Source: a virus
IMG/VR virus record: IMGVR_UViG_3300031569_000050
Coordinates: 1 to 20,906 of that record
Length of the DNA stretch: 20,906 nucleotides
Direction: 5' to 3' (one strand)
Under the pieces are notes generated by a model, which worked only from the letters and a program-made list of their open reading frames with translations, was not told the origin of the DNA and ran no database searches. This document shows, piece by piece, positions 2,339 through 20,730 of the stretch. Position numbers and translations under genes: made by a program. Numbering within the stretch: the stretch's first letter is position 1; every line of letters begins with the position of its first letter.

Positions 2339-3079
2339 ATGGCATCAACATTTACAGACCTTGGTTTAGAGTTAATGGCAACTGGTGAAAACGCCGGTAC
2401 TTGGGGAACAAAAACTAACGCAAATTTAAGTCTTATTGAACAACTTACAGGCGGTGTCTTAAGTTTAGCTGTTGCAGGATCAGGGACTACAGCTTTAACA
2501 ATAGCAGAAGGTGCTTTAACAGGTACTGCTCAACACAGAGTCATAGAATTAACAGGTGCTCTTACAGGATCTAGAATTTTAACATTTCCTCTTCTTACGG
2601 AAACTTTTTACATTATTAAAAACGGAACTACTGGTGCAGAAACATTACAGTTAAAAGCTGTGTCTGGTTCAGGTGCAACAGTTACTTTTGCAACAGATAA
2701 CAAAGGTTATAAACTTATTTATCTTGATGGTGTTGCAACAAACACTGGTGTTTTTGAAATGCCTTTTGGTACTTCTTCATACACTCCTTCAGACTGGCTT
2801 ACTAAAACAGGAGCATATACAGCATTAGATCAAGATAGAATTTTTGTAGATACAAGTGGAGGAGCAGTTACAATAACTCTTCCTGCATCACCCGCTGTAG
2901 GTGCTCAAGTAAATTTTGTGGATTCAAGATATACTTTCGATACTAACGCATTGACTGTCGGAAGAAATAGTTCTAAAATAGCTAACGCAGCAGCAGACTT
3001 AGTAGTTAATACTGAGGGTGCAGCATTTGGATTGGTTTTTTCTGGTGCAAATGTAGGTTGGACATATACGGAGAAATAA
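2339..3079 (+). CDS. Tail-fibre-like virion protein
   Basis: A 246-residue protein beginning MASTFTDLGLELMATGENAG. This N-terminal block, with its 'GTWGTKTNANLSLIEQ' continuation, I recognise from tail-region proteins of many marine phages. Beta-rich repeats follow ('ALTGTAQHRVIELTGALTGSRILTFP'), and a C-terminal half (about 150-246) resembles beta-sandwich fibre domains ('AVTITLPASPAVGAQVNFVD'). It has a good Shine-Dalgarno (AGGAGA about ten bases before the ATG). The N-terminal block may anchor the protein to the tail while the C-terminal half is distal; this is an inference. No catalytic motif is seen. Located between the repeat protein and the collar protein. Confidence 0.6.
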   Translation: MASTFTDLGLELMATGENAGTWGTKTNANLSLIEQLTGGVLSLAVAGSGTTALTIAEGALTGTAQHRVIELTGALTGSRILTFPLLTETFYIIKNGTTGAETLQLKAVSGSGATVTFATDNKGYKLIYLDGVATNTGVFEMPFGTSSYTPSDWLTKTGAYTALDQDRIFVDTSGGAVTITLPASPAVGAQVNFVDSRYTFDTNALTVGRNSSKIANAAADLVVNTEGAAFGLVFSGANVGWTYTEK

Positions 3080-3083
3080 TATT

Positions 3084-3674
3084 ATGGCAAATTACGAAGC
3101 AACTAAATATAATTTTAATGGATCAGACCTTACGGGTATAGAGGGTATTCCAACAGCAACAATTGTTCCATGGTCTTCCAGTTCAGTACCAACTGGATTC
3201 TTAGAATGTGATGGTGCAGCAGTTTCAAGATCAACTTATTCAGCATTATTTGCAATCGTAGGTACTACTTACGGTGCAGGTGATGGATCATCTACTTTTA
3301 CCTTACCTAATTTAGCAGATAACGTACCGGTTGGAAAATCTAATAACAAAGCTTTAGCTTCAACGGGTGGAGCAAACACAGTAGCAGTTACTGCTACGGG
3401 AAATGTTGGTGGTTCAACAGCTAATGCAACTTTATCAACAGCACAACTTGCTTCTCACTCCCACTCAGGTAATAACAATATAGATCAAGTAGCAGGTTAT
3501 CAATTAAGCCCTAACCCCGGGTACGCTGGCAGAGCATCAAACTCAGGTAACACTGGAAATGCAGGTTCAGGTTCAGGTCACTCACATAATATGAGTGCAA
3601 CTTTTTCAGGTAGCGCAGTTAATGCTGCAATTATACAACCTTATTTAGCTTTAATTTATATTATAAAAACTTAG
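3084..3674 (+). CDS. Phage tail collar-domain protein, probable receptor-binding tip
   Basis: A 196-residue protein with a clear tail collar domain (Pfam PF07484 type) at about residues 22-85: 'VPTGFLECDGAAVSRSTYSA', then 'GDGSSTFTLPNLADNVPVG'. After a Gly/Asn/Ser-rich linker come two His-x-His motifs, HSH at 125-127 and HSH at 166-168. The end, IIQPYLALIYIIKT, is the usual C-terminus of such proteins. In T4 long- and short-fibre tips, HxH motifs coordinate metal ions along the trimer axis, so a similar arrangement is plausible here. GGAG lies upstream of the ATG. It probably contacts the host surface. Collar assignment is firm; the receptor-binding role is inferred. Confidence 0.85.
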   Translation: MANYEATKYNFNGSDLTGIEGIPTATIVPWSSSSVPTGFLECDGAAVSRSTYSALFAIVGTTYGAGDGSSTFTLPNLADNVPVGKSNNKALASTGGANTVAVTATGNVGGSTANATLSTAQLASHSHSGNNNIDQVAGYQLSPNPGYAGRASNSGNTGNAGSGSGHSHNMSATFSGSAVNAAIIQPYLALIYIIKT

Positions 3675-3682
3675 GAGAAAAT

Positions 3683-4081
3683 ATGGCAACAAACGCAAAT
3701 TGGACAGTAATATTTAATGACAAAATGATTGTAAAACAATCAGGTGATGCAGCGGGTACTTCATACACTATATCTGATGATTCTTTTTGGTCTAATTCTA
3801 AATTTTCTAATATTTGGGCTATTCAACATGGGACATCCGTTACTTCAGATGAAGTAGAGTATAGAGATGTAACACCTCATTCATCATTTGCTGATGCCAA
3901 CATTGGAGACATTAGTCAATTTTCATCTAAATGGGATTTAGCACATTTAACTAAATTACAATCTGATTGGGATAATAATAATGGTGATACTGTTGATTTA
4001 GAAGGTAATGTTACTCACGTAGAAACTGAAGCTGAAAAAATTACAAGATTAGGTGCAAGACCTACTTCTTATTCTTCTTAG
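3683..4081 (+). CDS. Small conserved tail-region protein
   Basis: A 132-residue acidic, Trp-rich protein (MATNANWTVIFNDKMIVKQS at the start, 'GARPTSYSS' at the end). I recall similar proteins following collar genes in marine phages, without known function. A beta-rich N-terminal half ('SYTISDDSFWSNSKFSNIWAI') is followed by an apparent helix ('QFSSKWDLAHLTKLQSDWDN'). It could be a fibre-tip accessory or chaperone-like factor, but nothing shows this directly. Strong AGGAG upstream. Its stop codon (TAG, 4079-4081) overlaps the stop of the converging oxygenase gene by three bases, leaving no room for an intergenic terminator. Confidence 0.6.
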   Translation: MATNANWTVIFNDKMIVKQSGDAAGTSYTISDDSFWSNSKFSNIWAIQHGTSVTSDEVEYRDVTPHSSFADANIGDISQFSSKWDLAHLTKLQSDWDNNNGDTVDLEGNVTHVETEAEKITRLGARPTSYSS

Positions 4082-4560
4082 TTTAAATTAAAAGCATAAC
4101 AAATTCTTTTTTCTGCTCGTTGCTCCGGTAATACGTAATGTAGTAAATTATTAGGAAAAATTAAACAATCGAAAAGTTTAGGTTTTATTTCAAAAATATT
4201 ATTATCACGTGCAAAATTAATATTATTGTTTTCATTAGATAGATACAACACTCCAGCCATTTTTATATAGTCTGCTAAATGAACATGAGGTTTATTGTAA
4301 GATTGATTTTTTAAAACATTTAGCCATCCATGAATTATTTTTAAATTATATATGTTAAATATGTGTTTATTTATAATTTTATCTAACTCTTTTTTACCAT
4401 TAAAATTTTCATGATATTGAAATCCATTTACACAAGAAATAGTATCTTTTTCTTCATATTTTTCTTCTACAAAATTTAATATTTTTTTATACGTATTTAT
4501 AGGAACAATAATTTTACTTTGAAATACATTTACAGCGAATAAATTATAAGTATGTATCAT
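4078..4560 (-). CDS. 2OG-Fe(II) oxygenase with HxH motif (island gene 5)
   Basis: A 160-residue protein from the ATG at 4560, which overlaps the upstream stop as TAATG. A longer form from a GTG at 4578 adds six residues but has no ribosome binding site. It resembles the 2OG-Fe(II) oxygenase_5 family (PF13759 type). 'NKPHVHLADYIKMAGVLYLS' carries the H-x-H motif (residues 92 and 94 in this numbering), followed by a distal His in LLHYVLPE (141) and an Arg in EKRICYAFN (152) expected to bind 2-oxoglutarate. The family uses H-x-H where most relatives have H-x-D. It is the last gene of the leftward island and the smallest oxygenase. Substrate unknown. Confidence 0.75.
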   Translation of the reverse strand: MIHTYNLFAVNVFQSKIIVPINTYKKILNFVEEKYEEKDTISCVNGFQYHENFNGKKELDKIINKHIFNIYNLKIIHGWLNVLKNQSYNKPHVHLADYIKMAGVLYLSNENNNINFARDNNIFEIKPKLFDCLIFPNNLLHYVLPEQRAEKRICYAFNLN

Positions 4561-5153
4561 TATCTCAACATCATCCACGAAGTTAGAATATATTTTTCAC
4601 CCGATAGAGGTGGATTACCTCTATGTAGATAAGGAAAACCTGCTGGCCAAATAACTATTCTACCTGTTTTAGGTTTTACTCTTTTACTAAAATGTAAAAA
4701 TTCTGTTTCTCCTCCATCTTCAACGTCATTTAAATATATAGAAAAAACAAAAGCTCTAGGCTCATTATCAAAACCTTTTTGATGTTCAATATGCCATACA
4801 TGATAGCCCTCTGTAGGTAAAGTTTTTTGTATTTTTAAAGTTGTAAAATGAAATGGAGTTCCATAAGCATCATTTGCTCCAGTGTTTTCAATATAATGCT
4901 TTAAGGCTATATCAAAATTAAACATCATGGGTTTTAAACTTTCCCACCAAACATCTACATTATTGTTTGCTGCAAAAAATTGTTGGTCTTGTTTTTGTAA
5001 AATAGAGGCTTTTTCAAAACCTACTCTATTTATTGTATTATTAAACTTATTTTGATTTTCGTATAATTTAATAGCTTTGTTACATTCTTCTTTAGTAATG
5101 TAATTGTCATACACACCTATAAAATTATTTATGTTAACTGTTTTTTCGTTCAT
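4560..5153 (-). CDS. 2OG-Fe(II) oxygenase, prolyl-4-hydroxylase-like, HxE type (island gene 4)
   Basis: A 197-residue protein. I chose the ATG at 5153 because GGAG (5163-5166) lies nine bases upstream of it; an in-frame ATG at 5168 adds five residues but has no such site. The core matches a prolyl-4-hydroxylase-like (P4Hc) oxygenase: 'YHVWHIEHQ' gives the iron-binding H-x-E (121 and 123). Then follow 'YLNDVEDGGETEF' (140-152), 'KTGRIVIWPAGFPYLHRGNPP' with the distal His (177), and 'SGEKYILTSW' with the Lys (187) in the place of the 2OG-binding base. This WHxE/HRGNPP pattern I recall from marine phage and bacterial oxygenases. Glu instead of Asp in the iron triad is notable. Substrate unknown. 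Confidence 0.85.
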   Translation of the reverse strand: MNEKTVNINNFIGVYDNYITKEECNKAIKLYENQNKFNNTINRVGFEKASILQKQDQQFFAANNNVDVWWESLKPMMFNFDIALKHYIENTGANDAYGTPFHFTTLKIQKTLPTEGYHVWHIEHQKGFDNEPRAFVFSIYLNDVEDGGETEFLHFSKRVKPKTGRIVIWPAGFPYLHRGNPPLSGEKYILTSWMMLR

Positions 5154-5154
5154 T

Positions 5155-5697
5155 TTATTTATCTCCATTTATAAATATTTGAATTGTTTTTCTAGGAACC
5201 ACTGGTTTCATAACAGGTGTTACTTTATGATCTAGTGGAGCTTTAACTATAACCATTGAATTACCAACTAGCGGTATAAAACCGTTAGCATTTTTATCTT
5301 TAAATAAAAACTCTCCGCCAAATTTAGGTTCCCATCTTCTGTTAATATAATATGTTATACCATATAAATGTCCTTGGTCATCATGCCAATTAATACCAGA
5401 ACCATCTTCCATTGAATGAATTAAGGGTTCAAAGTTTGTAAATTTAATTTTATGGAAGGGATTATTTTCTAATAATATTTTAATTTTTTCTAATGGTTTA
5501 TATTTAGTATCTAGCCTTGTATTTTCAACAAAATTTTTATGTCCGTGTTTTAACTCTTTTTGCCAATTTTTTTTAGTAGATTTTAGTTTTATTAAATTAC
5601 TTTTAAATACGTCATAATGTAATTTTTTATAGGTAGGGTAATCTAAAAAATTTTGAATGTAATAAAGTTTATCAGGTATCTGGTATATTAATTTCAT
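5155..5697 (-). CDS. 2OG-Fe(II) oxygenase, HxD type (island gene 3)
   Basis: A 180-residue single-domain oxygenase of the 2OG-FeII_Oxy_3 kind. The iron ligands are His105 and Asp107 in 'INWHDDQGHLYGITYYINR'. 'FGGEFLFKD' (126-134) is the usual strand after it. His157 in LDHKVTPV is the third ligand, and Arg169 in 'VPRKTIQIFING' should hold the 2OG carboxylate. The ATG overlaps the previous stop as ATGA (5694-5697), so translation is coupled. The N-terminal 70 residues are Lys/Asn/Tyr-rich and very AT-coded. The motif set is complete, so the enzyme is probably active. Substrate is not indicated; a protein side chain or a small metabolite are both possible. Confidence 0.85.
   Translation of the reverse strand: MKLIYQIPDKLYYIQNFLDYPTYKKLHYDVFKSNLIKLKSTKKNWQKELKHGHKNFVENTRLDTKYKPLEKIKILLENNPFHKIKFTNFEPLIHSMEDGSGINWHDDQGHLYGITYYINRRWEPKFGGEFLFKDKNANGFIPLVGNSMVIVKAPLDHKVTPVMKPVVPRKTIQIFINGDK
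5163..5166 (-). promoter_or_regulatory. Ribosome binding site GGAG for island gene 4
   Basis: On the minus strand GGAG is followed by nine bases and the ATG at 5153-5151. It lies inside the end of island gene 3. It favours this start over the ATG at 5168. Confidence 0.7.
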
Positions 5698-6284
5698 GAT
5701 TTTAAAAAACAGTTAATTGAATATCTTGTACCTTTTGTTACAGGTTCAGTGCCGTGAATCCATATAGGTTCTGCTGGAAATAAAATTGCATCACCTGTTT
5801 TAAATACCTCTTTAATTTGACCATCAAAAAATCTAAACTCCCCACCTTCATAATTTTCATTTAAATTTAAAGTGCAGGAAGCTCTTGTAACTCCTCCAAC
5901 ATCAGTATGGTCTTTTATAGATTGCCCTACCTCATATTTCAATATTCTAATATTTGAACTATGGTTAATTAACTTATCATTAAAAGTAGCAGATATTTTT
6001 TTAGATTTAATATGGAGTACATAATTAGCTATCATTATAGATATATATTTTTTAGCTTCATTTAAAGCATATAAAATATCTTCGTTTGGATTTTGTATTA
6101 TAGATAGATTTAAACATTTAAAATTATCAGTTTCATGTTTTTTAGTTTTATATTTATAGCTACCCTCTGTTAAAGTTAATTCAGGGTATTTTTCAAATAT
6201 ATCTATTATTTTCTGACAAACATTTACTGGTACTAAACCATTAATTCTATATTTTAAATCTGATATTTTATGATTATAAGACAT
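5694..6284 (-). CDS. 2OG-Fe(II) oxygenase, classic HxD type (island gene 2)
   Basis: A 196-residue protein with the most canonical motif set of the four. 'YEVGQSIKDHTDVGG' holds His126 and Asp128, and 'TLNLNENYEGGEFRFFDG' follows (138-155). 'KTGDAILFPAEPIWIHGTEP' has the third iron ligand His177, and 'KGTRYSINCFL' has the 2OG-binding Arg187. This is a prolyl-4-hydroxylase-like fold (PF13640 type). Its ATG overlaps the stop of the methyltransferase as TAATG (6282-6286), showing coupling to it. The four oxygenases in this island share only the motif skeleton and differ in their N-terminal halves, so they look like different subfamilies and not recent duplicates. Substrate unknown. Confidence 0.88.
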   Translation of the reverse strand: MSYNHKISDLKYRINGLVPVNVCQKIIDIFEKYPELTLTEGSYKYKTKKHETDNFKCLNLSIIQNPNEDILYALNEAKKYISIMIANYVLHIKSKKISATFNDKLINHSSNIRILKYEVGQSIKDHTDVGGVTRASCTLNLNENYEGGEFRFFDGQIKEVFKTGDAILFPAEPIWIHGTEPVTKGTRYSINCFLKS

Positions 6285-6928
6285 TATATTATTCTAACTA
6301 ACGCTTGTCTTGGCCCAAACATTTCATATCTATATTTTATATTATTATTATTTACAAACTCTTGCCAAGCCTTAAATTCACCATATTTCCAACCCACATA
6401 ACTAATATATTCATCAAATAAAATTATAGTATTGGGGACAAATCTTTTTGAACCTATAATATTTAAAGCTTCTAAAGTAGATTCATATGTATCACTATCT
6501 ACATGTAAAAAAGAAATATTTTCATCATGTGTGGTAAAAAAATCAGGCATGGTATCTTTAAAAAATCCTTTTATTAATTTAACATTATTATTAACCAAAG
6601 GTAATTTACCATCTAAAGAATAATATCCTTTTGAAAAAAATCCCCCTTTCCAATCTTCTTGGAAACCTATAAAACTATCAAACCCATACCAAATTTTTTC
6701 AGGTTTATTTTTTGAAAAAAAATTAATGCTGGTTCCTGTAAAAACACCTAATTCTAAACATAATCCATCTACCTCTATTTTAGAAATAGCGGTAGCCCAC
6801 CACCCGCAATCTGTTATTACAGCTTCCGATATATATTTTCTAATATATTCTGCAGATTCTTTTGCAGCTTCTTCATATAAAATATCATAGGCATCTCTAT
6901 TTGCAGGAGCTCCATCTTTTTTATGCAT
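6284..6928 (-). CDS. TylF/macrocin-type SAM-dependent O-methyltransferase (island gene 1)
   Basis: A 214-residue class I methyltransferase. 'LCLELGVFTGTSINFFSK' (57-73) is the SAM-binding motif I, and 'WYGFDSFIGFQEDW' (80-93) is the typical acidic second strand. 'ISFLHVDSDTYESTLEAL' (138-155) and 'NTIILFDEYISYVGWKYGEF' (166-185) carry acidic residues in the places of TylF metal ligands (Asp144, Asp172, Glu173). TylF relatives O-methylate sugars or small molecules. No DPPY/NPPY or Pro-Cys motif is present, so it is not a typical DNA methylase. As the promoter-proximal gene it begins 34-40 bases after the promoter at 6968-6996. Family call firm; substrate unknown. Confidence 0.85.
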   Translation of the reverse strand: MHKKDGAPANRDAYDILYEEAAKESAEYIRKYISEAVITDCGWWATAISKIEVDGLCLELGVFTGTSINFFSKNKPEKIWYGFDSFIGFQEDWKGGFFSKGYYSLDGKLPLVNNNVKLIKGFFKDTMPDFFTTHDENISFLHVDSDTYESTLEALNIIGSKRFVPNTIILFDEYISYVGWKYGEFKAWQEFVNNNNIKYRYEMFGPRQALVRII

Positions 6929-6967
6929 AATTTTCTGTTATTTTCTCGCTTTCATTATCTATATATT

Positions 6968-6996
6968 ACTATATAAGGTTTATTAAAGAATTTCAA
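6968..6996 (-). promoter_or_regulatory. Sigma70-like promoter of the leftward oxygenase/methyltransferase island
   Basis: On the minus strand, TTGAAA (6996-6991, five of six to TTGACA) is followed by exactly 17 bases and TATAGT (6973-6968, five of six to TATAAT). Transcription would start near 6961, giving a leader of about 33 bases before the methyltransferase ATG at 6928. It lies in the 79-base divergent gap between island and virion genes, the only gap upstream of the island. No equally good element is seen on the plus strand. Confidence 0.65.
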
Positions 6997-7007: not shown

Positions 7008-9191
7008 ATGTTACAAAAATTAGGCTTTGCTCCAGGATTTAATAAACAAGTTACCGAAACAGGCGCTGAAGGTCAGTGGTTTGATGGTGATAATGTGCGT
7101 TTTAGATATGGCTCACCAGAAAAAATAGGTGGTTGGGAGCAGTTAGGTAGCAATAAGTTAACCGGTGCCGCAAGAGCTATACACAACTGGGATAATAATG
7201 TAGGTATAAAATATTCTGCAATTGGCACTAATAGAATTCTTTATGTTTTTTCAGACGGTCTTTACTATGACATCCATCCGATAAGAACTACAATTACTGG
7301 AGCAAATTTTACAAGTACAGCAGGATCACCAACAGTCACAATAACTGTTTCTTCTAACCATGGTTTATTAGATAATGATATAGTATTATTCGATGCTGTT
7401 TCTGGATTATCTGGGTCTACTTTTACAAACGCTACGTTTGAAGATGAAAAATTTATGGTAACTTCTGTACCAAGTAGTACCACTTTTACAATTACAATGG
7501 ATACTAATGAAGCCGGCACACCTGTGACTAATGCTGGTTCTGCTTCTGTTCTTTGTTATTATAGTGTAGGACCTGCTACACAGGAATCAGGGTTTGGTTG
7601 GAGTTCAGGGTTATTTGGTGGCGAGGTAAACGGGGCCGTAACCAATACTCTTGCTTCTACTATAAATGATGCTGTAACAAATATTCCTTTAACTAACTCA
7701 TCAACTTTTCCGGCATCGGGGACCATAAGAATAGGGACTGAAGATATATCTTACACAGCAAATAACACAGGAACAAATACTTTAAGTGGTGGGGCAAGAG
7801 AAGTTAATGGCACTACAAAATCTGCCCACAGTGGTGGTGCGACAGTCACAAATATTACAGATTTTAATGGATGGGGCGAAGCTTCATCAACTACACAGTT
7901 TACACTTAACCCTGGTTTATGGGTTCTTGATAATTTTGGTACAAAATTAATTGCTCTTATATATAATGGAGAATGTTTTGAATGGGATGGATCGGTTACA
8001 GATGCATTAACTACTCGGGCAACAATTATATCTGGAGCACCAACAGCATCACGTCACATGATAGTATCAACTCCGGATAGACACTTAGTTTTTTTTGGAA
8101 CAGAAACTACTATTGGTGATAAAACTACACAAGACGACATGTTTATAAGATTCTCTGACCAAGAAAATATCAACGAGTACACCATAAGAGCAGAAAATAC
8201 AGCAGGTTCTCAAAGGCTTGCTGCAGGATCTAAGATTATGTCTGCTATTAAAGGTAGGGATGCTCTTTATGTATGGACCGACACTGCATTATTTTTAATG
8301 CAATTTGTAGGTCAACCTTTTACTTTTGCATTTCAACAAGCAGGGACTAACTGTGGATTGATTGGCAAGAATGCCTGTATTGAAGTTGATGGCTCAGCTT
8401 ATTGGATGTCAGACAATGGTTTTTTTAACTATGATGGTCAGTTAAGATCGATGCCTTGTCTAGTAGAGGATTTTGTTTACTCCGTAGATCCCGGACTCGG
8501 ACTCAATAATACAACTAGAGATTTGATTAACGCAGGTATTAATAATCTTTTTGGAGAGATAAATTGGTTCTATTGTTCAGCTACAGCTACTTCGGTCGAT
8601 AGAGTGGTTAGCTATAATTATGTAGATTCTACAACTGAAAGACCTATTTGGACAACGGGGTCGTTAAATAGATCTGCTTGGGTAGATTCTGCTGTATACG
8701 AAAAACCTCATGCAACACTTTATAATGCCGACGATAACGCCTCTTATGATGTTACTGGAAACGTAGACGGAAGTAGTATATACTATCAACACGAAACAGG
8801 GACCGATCAAGTTAATGCCGGCAATGTTGTTACTGCTGTTAATGCCAACATTCTTTCCGGTGATTTTGATATTACTCAAAAAAGAAGTAATACAGGTCAA
8901 GCGGTAGGGACTCCTGATCTTAGAGGAGATGGTGAATATATGATGAGGATAAGTAGATTTATACCAGATTTCATAGAACAAACAGGTGATACTGAAGTTA
9001 GTTTTACAACAAGAAATTATCCAAATACCGCTGCAACAACTACAAATTTTACATCGACCGAAACTACAAATTTTAAAAGCACTAGACTTAGAGCTAGATC
9101 AATTGCACTAAAAGTATCCAATACAGGTACAGGAAAAAATTGGAAACTCGGTACATTTAGATTAGACATTGCACCAGGAGGAATGAGATAA
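7008..9191 (+). CDS. Large tail/stabilisation-like virion protein
   Basis: A 727-residue protein starting MLQKLGFAPGFNKQVTETGA, a beginning I recognise from marine podovirus contigs. The frame 'GQWFDGDNVRFRYGSPEKIGGWEQL' (22-46), then scattered blade-like repeats ('LYVWTDTALFLMQFVG', 'YWMSDNGFFNYDGQL'), resemble beta-propeller tail proteins such as P22 gp10, which plugs packaged DNA; this link is an inference. Residues about 95-285 look like inserted beta domains, including 'FPASGTIRIGTEDISYT' and 'GTTKSAHSGGATV'. That insertion would account for the size, larger than P22 gp10. The ribosome binding site is weak (CAGG). The stop forms TAATG with the next gene. Confidence 0.6.
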   Translation: MLQKLGFAPGFNKQVTETGAEGQWFDGDNVRFRYGSPEKIGGWEQLGSNKLTGAARAIHNWDNNVGIKYSAIGTNRILYVFSDGLYYDIHPIRTTITGANFTSTAGSPTVTITVSSNHGLLDNDIVLFDAVSGLSGSTFTNATFEDEKFMVTSVPSSTTFTITMDTNEAGTPVTNAGSASVLCYYSVGPATQESGFGWSSGLFGGEVNGAVTNTLASTINDAVTNIPLTNSSTFPASGTIRIGTEDISYTANNTGTNTLSGGAREVNGTTKSAHSGGATVTNITDFNGWGEASSTTQFTLNPGLWVLDNFGTKLIALIYNGECFEWDGSVTDALTTRATIISGAPTASRHMIVSTPDRHLVFFGTETTIGDKTTQDDMFIRFSDQENINEYTIRAENTAGSQRLAAGSKIMSAIKGRDALYVWTDTALFLMQFVGQPFTFAFQQAGTNCGLIGKNACIEVDGSAYWMSDNGFFNYDGQLRSMPCLVEDFVYSVDPGLGLNNTTRDLINAGINNLFGEINWFYCSATATSVDRVVSYNYVDSTTERPIWTTGSLNRSAWVDSAVYEKPHATLYNADDNASYDVTGNVDGSSIYYQHETGTDQVNAGNVVTAVNANILSGDFDITQKRSNTGQAVGTPDLRGDGEYMMRISRFIPDFIEQTGDTEVSFTTRNYPNTAATTTNFTSTETTNFKSTRLRARSIALKVSNTGTGKNWKLGTFRLDIAPGGMR
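9176..9181 (+). promoter_or_regulatory. Perfect Shine-Dalgarno AGGAGG
   Basis: AGGAGG lies nine bases before the ATG at 9191 and inside the last codons of the upstream gene. It is the strongest ribosome binding site in the window and, with the TAATG overlap, points to high expression of the 9191 gene. Confidence 0.75.
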
Positions 9192-18805: not shown

Positions 18806-19291
18806 ATGCAATTATCGAAACATTTTACTCTTGAAGAGATGACACGGTCTATGACTGCTGTACGTAAAGGAATTGACAACATTCCAGGGCCCGGGGAGAT
18901 TAAAAACCTAGGAAACCTCTGTTATGAGGTCTTAGAGCCCGTTAGAGCACACTTCGACAAAGCTATAAGCATTAGCTCGGGATACCGCTCAGAAGCGTTG
19001 TGCGTAGCGATAGGAAGCAAAAAAACCTCACAGCACGCACTTGGGTGTGCTGCCGACTTTGAAATTAATTCTGTGCCCAATATTCAGGTTGCTTACTGGT
19101 TGACTAACAACGTTGACTTTGATCAATGCATTCTCGAGTATTATAAACCCGAAGATGATCAGGCGGGATGGATACACGTATCTTATGATGAAAAAGGATC
19201 TAACAGAAAACAAATACTTACCTTTGATGGTAAAAAATACACCGAAGGTTTACCAGAAATGAAATGGTCTGGTGGTAAAGTAGTTGGTTAA
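18806..19291 (+). CDS. M15-family peptidase endolysin
   Basis: A 161-residue single-domain peptidase of the M15A kind (PF08291 type), cutting cell-wall peptide cross-links at lysis. 'ISISSGYRSEAL' (55-66) is followed by the zinc-site motif S-x-H-x-x-G-x-A-x-D in 'SQHALGCAADFE' (His77, Asp84). 'GWIHVSYDEK' supplies the third ligand His124. Glu111 in 'ILEYY' is the likely catalytic base. The N-terminal 'LSKHFTLEEMTRS' is typical of the family. No signal peptide, so release through the preceding holin-like protein is expected. No Shine-Dalgarno is visible. The middle is richer in G+C than its neighbours. Its stop overlaps the converging helicase stop. Confidence 0.9.
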   Translation: MQLSKHFTLEEMTRSMTAVRKGIDNIPGPGEIKNLGNLCYEVLEPVRAHFDKAISISSGYRSEALCVAIGSKKTSQHALGCAADFEINSVPNIQVAYWLTNNVDFDQCILEYYKPEDDQAGWIHVSYDEKGSNRKQILTFDGKKYTEGLPEMKWSGGKVVG

Positions 19292-20730
19292 ATCCAATCT
19301 TTGAGTTGTTCACCCATAATCTGACTAGCTATATTAACTTTCTTTTTAAGAGCCTTAACAATTCTAGCATCAACAGTATTCTCACAATAAATATCTATGT
19401 ATGTCATAGGATACTTCTGACCAATACGATCTATCCTTGCTTCTGATTGTTGTCTCTTCTCAAGATCATAACCATTAGAATAATATACCATAGTAGACGC
19501 TGCAGTTAATGTAATACCGTAACCACCGGTCTGTGTTGTACCAATAAAGAATCTTACAGGCGAATCTGGATCTTGGAACTTCTTAATATTGTCTTGACGG
19601 TCTTTCATAGGAGTCAATCCATAATAATCTACAAAACTATTTGCGCCATATTTTTTAGATATCTCCCGGATTATCCTACTAACATCTCTTTGCCAGTGGG
19701 CCCATATAACAATCTTACCTTCTACTTCTTCTAATACATTCATTAGTTCTGGTAATCTGTTTGAGTCTAGATCTTTGATAGTCCCATCATCAGCAGTAAA
19801 ATGACCACAAGTAATTTGTTGCAATCTCATTAGCTGAGTCATAACTGTAGCTGTAGTCATCATCTTGTCATCCATTTGAGCAAGAGCTAAATTTTTCATT
19901 TGTAGATAAAGTTTTTTCTGTTCTGCACTTAGTGTAACAAGACGTTTAATAAAAGTCTTAGGTGGCAGATCTAAACAATCGTCTTTTAATACTCTATAAG
20001 AAAATGCTTTTAATTTTTCTGACAACTCTGGAAGATGTTGATAGCCTGTAACTATTTGTACGGACTTACCACCAAAATTAGCTGTTTTCATAACTGCATA
20101 TCTAGTTCTAAATGTATAGTAAGAAGTGTGTCCCAATAATTCTTTTTTAAGAAACTCACATTGTTTATATAAATCTAATGGTGATTTAGTAACAGGAGAT
20201 CCAGTAAGTATTCTTCTATATGAAGCATGTTCAGCAAGAGAACATATATGTTTAGTTCTTTTAGCATCTGGGTTTTTAATAGTAGTGGACTCATCTATAG
20301 CCATCATAGTTCTATGACATCTTAAAAACTTAGCCGCAAAACTAACACCTTTTGCAGTAGAGAAAGCTTCTACATTCATCATAAGAATATGTAAATCTTC
20401 ACCTGGTTTAAATAATGAATCTAATTCTAACTGTTGTTTTTTATTAGGTAAAGGATTCCACAACACAGAAGTTTTTTCAATGTGGTCTGGTAAGTGTGTA
20501 GGAATCTCTCCTTCATACCAGTTTTTATAAACACCTTTAGGTGCAATAATTAATACACCATTAATTTTTCCAGTATCATATAACATTGCAATGTTATCAA
20601 TTAATACTTTTGATTTACCTGTACCCATTTCCATAAAATATGCAAAGTACGGTTTATCCCATGATAACTCTAATGCTTTTATTTGATGCGCATAAGGCTT
20701 AGTCTTAAACTTATAGTTTTTTATTTCCAT
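19288..20730 (-). CDS. SNF2-type DEAD/DEAH-box helicase
   Basis: A 480-residue two-domain superfamily 2 ATPase with all main motifs: 'PYAHQ' (12-16), Walker A 'MEMGTGKS' (33-40), motif Ia 'LIIAPKG' (60-66), Walker B 'AIDEST' (144-149), and motif III 'ILTGSPVTKSPLDLYKQ' (174-190). Motif V is 'TQTGGYGITLTAAS' (399-412) and VI is 'QQSEARIDRIGQK' (427-439), whose RIGQ is characteristic of SNF2 proteins. Phage members probably act in replication, recombination or chromatin-free DNA remodelling; the specific role is unknown. It is leftward, opposite to the lysis genes it meets tail to tail, and is served by the palindromic promoter region. The start has only a weak AGAAG ribosome binding site. Confidence 0.9.
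   Translation of the reverse strand: MEIKNYKFKTKPYAHQIKALELSWDKPYFAYFMEMGTGKSKVLIDNIAMLYDTGKINGVLIIAPKGVYKNWYEGEIPTHLPDHIEKTSVLWNPLPNKKQQLELDSLFKPGEDLHILMMNVEAFSTAKGVSFAAKFLRCHRTMMAIDESTTIKNPDAKRTKHICSLAEHASYRRILTGSPVTKSPLDLYKQCEFLKKELLGHTSYYTFRTRYAVMKTANFGGKSVQIVTGYQHLPELSEKLKAFSYRVLKDDCLDLPPKTFIKRLVTLSAEQKKLYLQMKNLALAQMDDKMMTTATVMTQLMRLQQITCGHFTADDGTIKDLDSNRLPELMNVLEEVEGKIVIWAHWQRDVSRIIREISKKYGANSFVDYYGLTPMKDRQDNIKKFQDPDSPVRFFIGTTQTGGYGITLTAASTMVYYSNGYDLEKRQQSEARIDRIGQKYPMTYIDIYCENTVDARIVKALKKKVNIASQIMGEQLKDWI

Follow-up and report, generated by a model that had tools for sequence, protein, structure and literature searches.

The DNA analysed here, referred to as the window, is a complete IMG/VR virus record of 20,906 bases (IMGVR_UViG_3300031569_000050), the underlying phage genome being incomplete, so that further modification genes may lie elsewhere in it. 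It carries an array of five genes, A to E, which encode four 2-oxoglutarate (2OG)-Fe(II) oxygenases (A-D) and a TylF-type O-methyltransferase (E). By its sequence, the window phage is an HTVC027P-like pelagiphage: the SAR11 phage HTVC027P is 80% identical over positions 2841-5160, and a comparison with 50,697 phage records gave no other near match.

All five open reading frames (4078-4578, 4560-5168, 5155-5697, 5694-6284 and 6284-6928) lie on the minus strand and overlap successively by 19, 14, 4 and 1 nt. An earlier note on this DNA, made from its letters alone, had described a coupled, leftward five-gene island inserted between rightward tail genes. These four overlaps and profile searches for the gene classes confirm this description, and the rightward flanks can now be specified as a tail-collar gene and a gene termed X on the left, and a gene termed Y, for a virion 'stabilization'-type protein, on the right. 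The island has a G+C content of 26.0%, as compared to 36.6% in the rest of the window. The strong contrast reported earlier thus holds, with an exact count of 53/240 at 5401-5640, while the count at 2341-2580 is 97/240 and not 98. In relatives, island G+C was below outside G+C in all 150 comparable intervals. Ratios of nonsynonymous to synonymous substitution (NG86) against the closest relatives were low, at about 0.07-0.15 for B, 0.16-0.18 for C, 0.13-0.20 for D, 0.20-0.23 for E and 0.32-0.43 for A, indicating that the island genes are under purifying selection.

When genomes were scanned with gene B, the best matches were short contigs of a Maricaulis metagenome-assembled genome (79-66% identity), and a further match (64%) was found on a contig of the SAR11 single cell AG-919-D18. 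This contig is phage-like and carries the island together with X, the collar gene and Y, which supports SAR11 as the host. Relatives of B in cellular genomes share only about 30% identity; a single chromosomal context, in Shewanella, was inspected and gave no clue to a substrate.

Oxygenases A to D and methyltransferase E

All four oxygenases exceed the Pfam gathering score of PF13759 or PF13640, and we regard them, on sequence grounds, as members of the 2OG-Fe(II) oxygenase superfamily and predicted enzymes. The four dissimilar motif sets that the earlier note had read from them (HxD, HxD, HxE and HxH) were recovered, each accompanied by a distal His and an Arg or Lys. Loss of iron-binding residues among homologues, which the note had named as a finding that would speak against it, was not observed: the iron ligands and the basic residue are invariant or nearly so across 18-192 homologues. 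The fold assignment is based on an AlphaFold2 model and Foldseek for B, on profile comparison for D, and on profile links to D for A and C.

Gene B (4560-5168, minus strand; PF13640, 5e-11; phrog_61, 5e-47) encodes a prolyl 4-hydroxylase (P4H)-like oxygenase. H126, E128, H182 and K192 are conserved, so that the protein has HxE where the canonical P4H motif is HxD, and a conserved Lys at the presumed 2OG-binding position. Against the PDB, its profile finds prolyl 4-hydroxylases (1e-13). The model, with a predicted local distance difference test score (pLDDT) of 91, matched the double-stranded beta-helix fold; its best Foldseek matches were the collagen prolyl hydroxylase vCPH of PBCV-1, PHD2 and bacterial P4H, and nearly all of the top 50 were prolyl hydroxylases. 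Among these structural neighbours are the P4H of Pseudomonas putida, solved as a complex with EF-Tu, and that of Bacillus anthracis.

Gene D (5694-6284, minus strand; PF13640, 2e-12) encodes a P4H/PKHD-like oxygenase with conserved H126, D128, H177 and R187 (HxD...H...R); its profile matches P4H (4e-18), PiuC (3e-16) and also PHD2 in the PDB. Judged by sequence, and for B also by its model, B and D are similar to enzymes of the peptidyl-hydroxylase or PKHD type. Gene C (5155-5697, minus strand; PF13640 (2OG-FeII_Oxy_3), 5e-8) has the same HxD...H...R arrangement, with H105, D107, H157 and R169 conserved in 100 sequences. It is linked to D by profile comparison (hhalign E-value 6e-11), its link to P4H being weak. 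In NCBIfam, C also has a weak match to the FlmC 2OG oxygenase family (5e-4, far under the cut-off). Profile comparison of B with C yielded no significant link, and an origin by a single recent duplication is therefore unsupported.

Gene A (4078-4578, minus strand; PF13759 2OG-FeII_Oxy_5, 1e-10; phrog_81, 3e-19) deviates by a His in the second position of its HxH motif; H98, H100, H147 and R158 are invariant in 18 homologues, and its profile is related to that of D (hhalign E-value 6.5e-7). Since the six residues preceding the ATG at 4560 correspond to the conserved 3' end of B in another frame, this ATG, which overlaps the TAA of B in a TAATG, is likely the true start and yields a product of 160 amino acids; by the same comparison, the GTG start of the annotation arises from the 3' end of B being read out of frame and is an artefact. 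A search of viral contigs with A as query returned one relative only, and the homologues of A were taken from other loci.

Gene E (6284-6928, minus strand) is promoter-proximal and encodes a SAM-dependent (S-adenosylmethionine) O-methyltransferase of the TylF/MycF type with 214 amino acids (PF05711, 1e-10; also Methyltransf_24). The PF05711 match scores 41.6 bits against a cut-off of 23 and spans the C-terminal part of the profile. E59, D84, D144, D146, D172 and E173 are invariant in 23 sequences and, by analogy with the family, presumably contribute to the SAM and metal sites. Its matches in the PDB are CalS11 (4e-12), followed by NovP and MycF, and at the level of sequence E thus resembles O-methyltransferases of small molecules or sugars.

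A constant core with reassorting cargo

Related loci were fetched from IMG/VR with each island protein and with both flanking proteins, the latter to avoid a bias towards cargo. The locus sets comprise the closest 80 matches per query on fragmentary contigs, and the survey therefore leans towards the HTVC027P type. It yielded 157 distinct intervals with both flanks, merged only if exactly identical and with genes below 80 amino acids ignored. Gene B is present in all of them, including the 53 obtained by flank queries alone; none of the 157 is an empty site, and the smallest interval consists of B alone. In the 53 flank-sampled intervals, which have a median of four oxygenases, D occurs in 36, C in 21, A in four and E in none; E is a rare module overall (6/157).

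According to Pfam scans of cluster representatives, with a few clusters placed by motif only, 614 of the 717 cargo genes (86%) encode 2OG oxygenases, falling into more than 20 clusters. The others include 37 carbamoyltransferase genes or pieces, 20 methyltransferases, 11 sulfotransferase-like, 10 JmjC/cupin, seven tryptophan-halogenase-like and two APS (adenosine 5'-phosphosulfate)-kinase-like genes; no glycosyltransferase, NDP (nucleoside diphosphate)-sugar or scaffold-building gene was recognised among the island clusters. In one island (L188:3368-4374), an APS-kinase-like gene adjoins a sulfotransferase-like gene, suggestive of phage-supplied sulfation, and a tryptophan-halogenase-like flavoprotein (PF04820) is carried by several pelagiphages (L361:6239-7384 and the cluster 18 loci). 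Almost all cargo genes (695/717) are oriented leftward, and the spacing between island genes has a median of -4 nt, with 94% within 20 nt.

The intervals display 118 distinct gene orders. B-C-D is contiguous in 29 of the 157 and A-B-C-D in two, while A-B-C-D-E was found in the window only. The earlier proposal that these five genes form a defined system acting in sequence is therefore not supported, as the exact order occurs once and the TylF-type gene is as rare as stated above. Conservation of order is partial, and the scattering among relatives that the note had named as speaking against it was not observed: compared with shuffles within islands, C-D was adjacent 38 times against 11 expected, B-C 26 against 11.5, D with cluster 5 25 against 6, and B with cluster 3 24 against 9; these pairs and B-cluster 4 were all above the shuffles (p 0.001-0.004). 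Conversely, C and cluster 5 occur together in three of 108 orders, where about 13 would be expected (Fisher p 3e-6). The hotspot is thus modular, and the island is one of its states: a constant B is combined with reassorting cargo in an order that is neither fixed nor random. Phages of the HTVC023P kind have comparable arrays in forward orientation, several of which contain TylF relatives.

The phrog_2954 family

Cluster 5 of the islands corresponds to phrog_2954, a family named ferrochelatase. It has been reported as a ferrochelatase auxiliary metabolic gene (AMG) that is enriched in seasonal viruses together with phrog61 (PMC11561400). In all likelihood, judging from sequence, it is also the 'ferrochelatase' partner of pelagiphage oxygenases in PMC9599517, because HTVC023P gp67, annotated as ferrochelatase, matches phrog_2954. 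Members at our loci include L123:6983-7507, L003:4289-4906, L004:6054-6707 and L397:5566-6204; four members had no match in Pfam, and one had none in NCBIfam. H90, D92, H136 and R138 are invariant in the family (HxD...H...R), its profile is similar to that of gene D, and an AlphaFold2 model (pLDDT 96) matches PKHD, P4H and PHD2 structures. As the PDB yielded no match in a sequence-profile search, the family is assigned to the oxygenases from the model, the motif and the comparison with D. On this basis, phrog_2954 is likely an oxygenase-fold protein and its name a misannotation; with such a fold, an interpretation in terms of haem should be given up unless activity can be demonstrated.

Flanking genes and candidate promoters

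The left flank begins with the tail-collar gene (3084-3674, plus strand; PF07484, 2e-21), whose product has two invariant HxH motifs, H125/H127 and H166/H168. HxH motifs of this type bind iron in the fibre tips of T4. Gene X follows at 3683-4081 (plus strand) and overlaps A convergently by 4 nt. It occurs in 155 of the 157 intervals and, among isolated phages, in HTVC027P only. Behind a variable linker, X ends in the C-terminal tail RPTSYSS (4058-4078, plus strand), which is near invariant at the protein level; in 181 sequences, conservation is.97 for R,.99 for P,.98 for T,.97 for S and.94 for Y, while synonymous codons vary. We consider this tail a candidate hydroxylation substrate, and the leading one for B.

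On the right, Y (7008-9191, plus strand; phrog_3287, 5e-84) encodes the virion structural or stabilization-type protein. Just upstream of it lies the conserved motif CTTTCATT-N13-TATATAA (6949-6976, plus strand), a candidate for a dedicated Y promoter, which has one match in the window and none in 100 shuffles. With a spacer of N13 or N14, the element directly precedes Y in 92 of 163 loci with a reversed island and in none of 39 with a forward array; it may well be a promoter that keeps Y transcribed where the inverted island breaks the rightward operon. For the island itself, TTGAAA-N17-TATAGT (6968-6996, minus strand) is a candidate leftward, sigma-70-like promoter by consensus match, and a comparable element exists in a subset of relatives. 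A promoter scan of the region gave 20 promoter-like sites, as compared to 26.6 in shuffles, and the leftward candidate thus rests on position and partial conservation. Downstream of Y, HTVC027P and HTVC023P carry glycosyltransferase genes (L002:14367-15314 and L003:10950-11879), whereas none was recognised at the equivalent place in the window. Further features of the window are a Ser/Thr-rich, repetitive fibre-like protein with TSSVG repeats (1463-2326), very variable among relatives, and, at the record's right-hand end, a leftward SNF2-type helicase (19288-20730) after a rightward M15 endolysin.

Discussion

We take the locus to be a real, selected, modular tailoring hotspot centred on oxygenases, whose function we infer with moderate to low confidence. 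Our tentatively preferred interpretation is that it constitutes a modular tailoring cassette between collar/X and Y of HTVC027P-type SAR11 phages, in which B hydroxylates a protein, the likeliest substrate being a neighbouring tail protein. In infected cells, B would add a hydroxyl to the side chain of a protein; the remaining island enzymes would hydroxylate further sites or modify the hydroxyls, E by O-methylation, such that swapped modules would alter the chemical surface of the product. If the substrate is a tail protein of the virion from the adjacent genes, the X tail RPTSYSS being the leading candidate for B, module swapping would vary adsorption or recognition. The most specific form of this proposal, a combinatorial modification in which B acts on RPTSYSS and tail proteins are then decorated by exchangeable modules (oxygenases, methyl-, carbamoyl- and sulfotransferases and halogenase-like enzymes), is decidedly doubtful; it would give SAR11 phages a chemically diverse tail surface at unchanged protein sequence.

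A protein substrate is favoured by the P4H-like fold of B, and most of the cargo other than oxygenases consists of group-transfer, halogenase-like or JmjC enzymes. The position of the island, the conservation of the X tail, the array of HTVC008M described below and the contexts of B in cyanophages support a virion target; distant B relatives in several cyanophages adjoin capsid (gp23), gp3 or tail-fibre genes. Gene E is distantly related to gp108 of mycobacteriophage Che8, annotated as a glycosyltransferase, and the Che8 capsid is reported to be glycosylated (cited in PMC11256854).

Several points weigh against this interpretation. Mantel and partial Mantel tests found no signal between cargo and the sequence distance of collar, X and Y (n=84 and 59). 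For the repeat fibre, a signal at n=24 (partial r 0.26, p 0.003) was gone at n=61 (r -0.02), and the idea that cargo tracks this fibre was dropped. As X and B share their lineage, their co-occurrence is not independent evidence, and the conservation of the X tail could serve assembly. Fold similarity does not fix the substrate, some B relatives in cyanophages have metabolic genes rather than virion genes as neighbours, and a search for hydroxylated phage virion proteins found no relevant report within the limited literature covered.

Tailoring of a small molecule or glycan, such as a host surface glycan, a lipid head group or a phage-induced metabolite, is conceivable, though not probable. The nearest solved relatives of E are the antibiotic deoxysugar O-methyltransferases CalS11 and MycF, plus NovP, carbamoyltransferase, sulfotransferase and halogenase-like genes are characteristic of the tailoring of natural products or glycans, and the weak FlmC match of C points the same way. 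However, the resemblance of B and D is to peptidyl hydroxylases or PKHD enzymes, the modules combine freely rather than in a fixed pathway, and the island clusters lack recognisable genes for building or transferring a sugar or scaffold.

It is rather unlikely that B and its partners instead modify host proteins, for example translation factors, in the course of takeover, with the insertion site being merely permissive. Bacterial P4H acts on EF-Tu, as seen in the P. putida complex and reported for the B. anthracis enzyme, both structural neighbours of B, and the independence of cargo from the flanking virion-protein lineage would be expected for a substrate that is not a neighbour. Yet B relatives lie inside virion operons of several cyanophages, and carbamoyltransferase, sulfotransferase and halogenase-like partners fit the control of host factors less well.

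The many gene orders and the low G+C of all comparable islands would also suit a permissive hotspot gathering unconnected small genes. We consider this clearly unlikely, given that a single superfamily dominates the cargo, B is constant, orientation is nearly uniform, certain pairs are enriched, and C and cluster 5 exclude each other.

A reprogramming of host iron or 2-oxoglutarate metabolism by the oxygenases and their 'ferrochelatase' partners appears quite improbable. Iron-uptake genes are upregulated in HTVC027P infection, which the authors tie to gp73 (PMC12753301), and phrog61 and phrog2954 are enriched in the seasonal viruses mentioned above. The predicted oxygenase fold and conserved HxD...H of the 'ferrochelatase' family would, however, remove the link to haem, and bulk turnover of 2OG or iron needs no multitude of dissimilar, ligand-conserved enzymes with recurring block order. 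DNA hypermodification, by TET/JBP-like base oxidation followed by decoration, is highly improbable and was rejected as the main explanation: some HTVC023P-type phages have genes for thymidine hypermodification close to polA (PMC9599517), but B matches P4H rather than TET/JBP, the Tet-like match of D is weak (6e-5) and far behind P4H, and the island sits in the virion module.

The most abundant bacteria of the ocean have HTVC023P-type phages among their most numerous viruses, and at present the 2OG oxygenases of these phages are interpreted as genes of iron or host metabolism with a ferrochelatase partner. The architecture of the hotspot, its peptidyl-hydroxylase-like core and the probable reassignment of the ferrochelatase partner point to a function in modification, which is directly testable on the cultured isolate HTVC027P. 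Should virion proteins be the target, this would represent a new route of phage diversification, via post-translational chemistry.

Phages with several oxygenases have been described before, and the suggestion in the earlier note that such a set was not a described system is correct only in part. For HTVC023P-type phages, of the same group, Wittmers et al. 2022 (PMC9599517) reported eight 2OG oxygenases that lie near each other without being orthologous, colocated with 'ferrochelatase' genes as in our islands. There, however, the genes are called non-adjacent, with variable order, and the partners are treated as ferrochelatases, whereas here they are contiguous, inverted and bounded by X and Y, B is always present, and phrog_2954 is predicted to have an oxygenase fold. 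HTVC027P gp72-gp74 (MN698241) occupy the same site in the same orientation, gp73 being B (87% identity) and gp72 and gp74 2OG oxygenases, but these three oxygenases come without C, D and the methyltransferase. HTVC008M (KC465899; L397:3334-6613) has an opposite-strand run of 2OG/PhyH oxygenases with a phrog_2954 gene between neck and other late genes; it is an unrelated, T4-like SAR11 myophage with other genes at another site, and its B relative is 32% identical. Cyanophages carry many oxygenases of the same Pfam families per genome, among them phrog_61 near gp23 or tail fibres; S-SCSM1 has 24 2OG oxygenases, and the accessible text of that report does not describe a single-site hotspot with a constant core (PMC9602691).

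At the level of individual proteins, B shares fold and iron-ligand arrangement, and D its profile, with the P4Hs of PBCV-1 (vCPH), B. anthracis and P. putida and with PHD2, from which B differs by HxE for HxD, Lys at the presumed 2OG position and an identity of about 15-23%. E fits the family profile of TylF, MycF, CalS11 and NovP with conserved acidic residues, but is shorter and phage-encoded. What the present analysis adds to the known multi-oxygenase marine phages is the constant core, the inverted modular architecture with its boundary element, the mix of tailoring genes, and the probable correction of phrog_2954.

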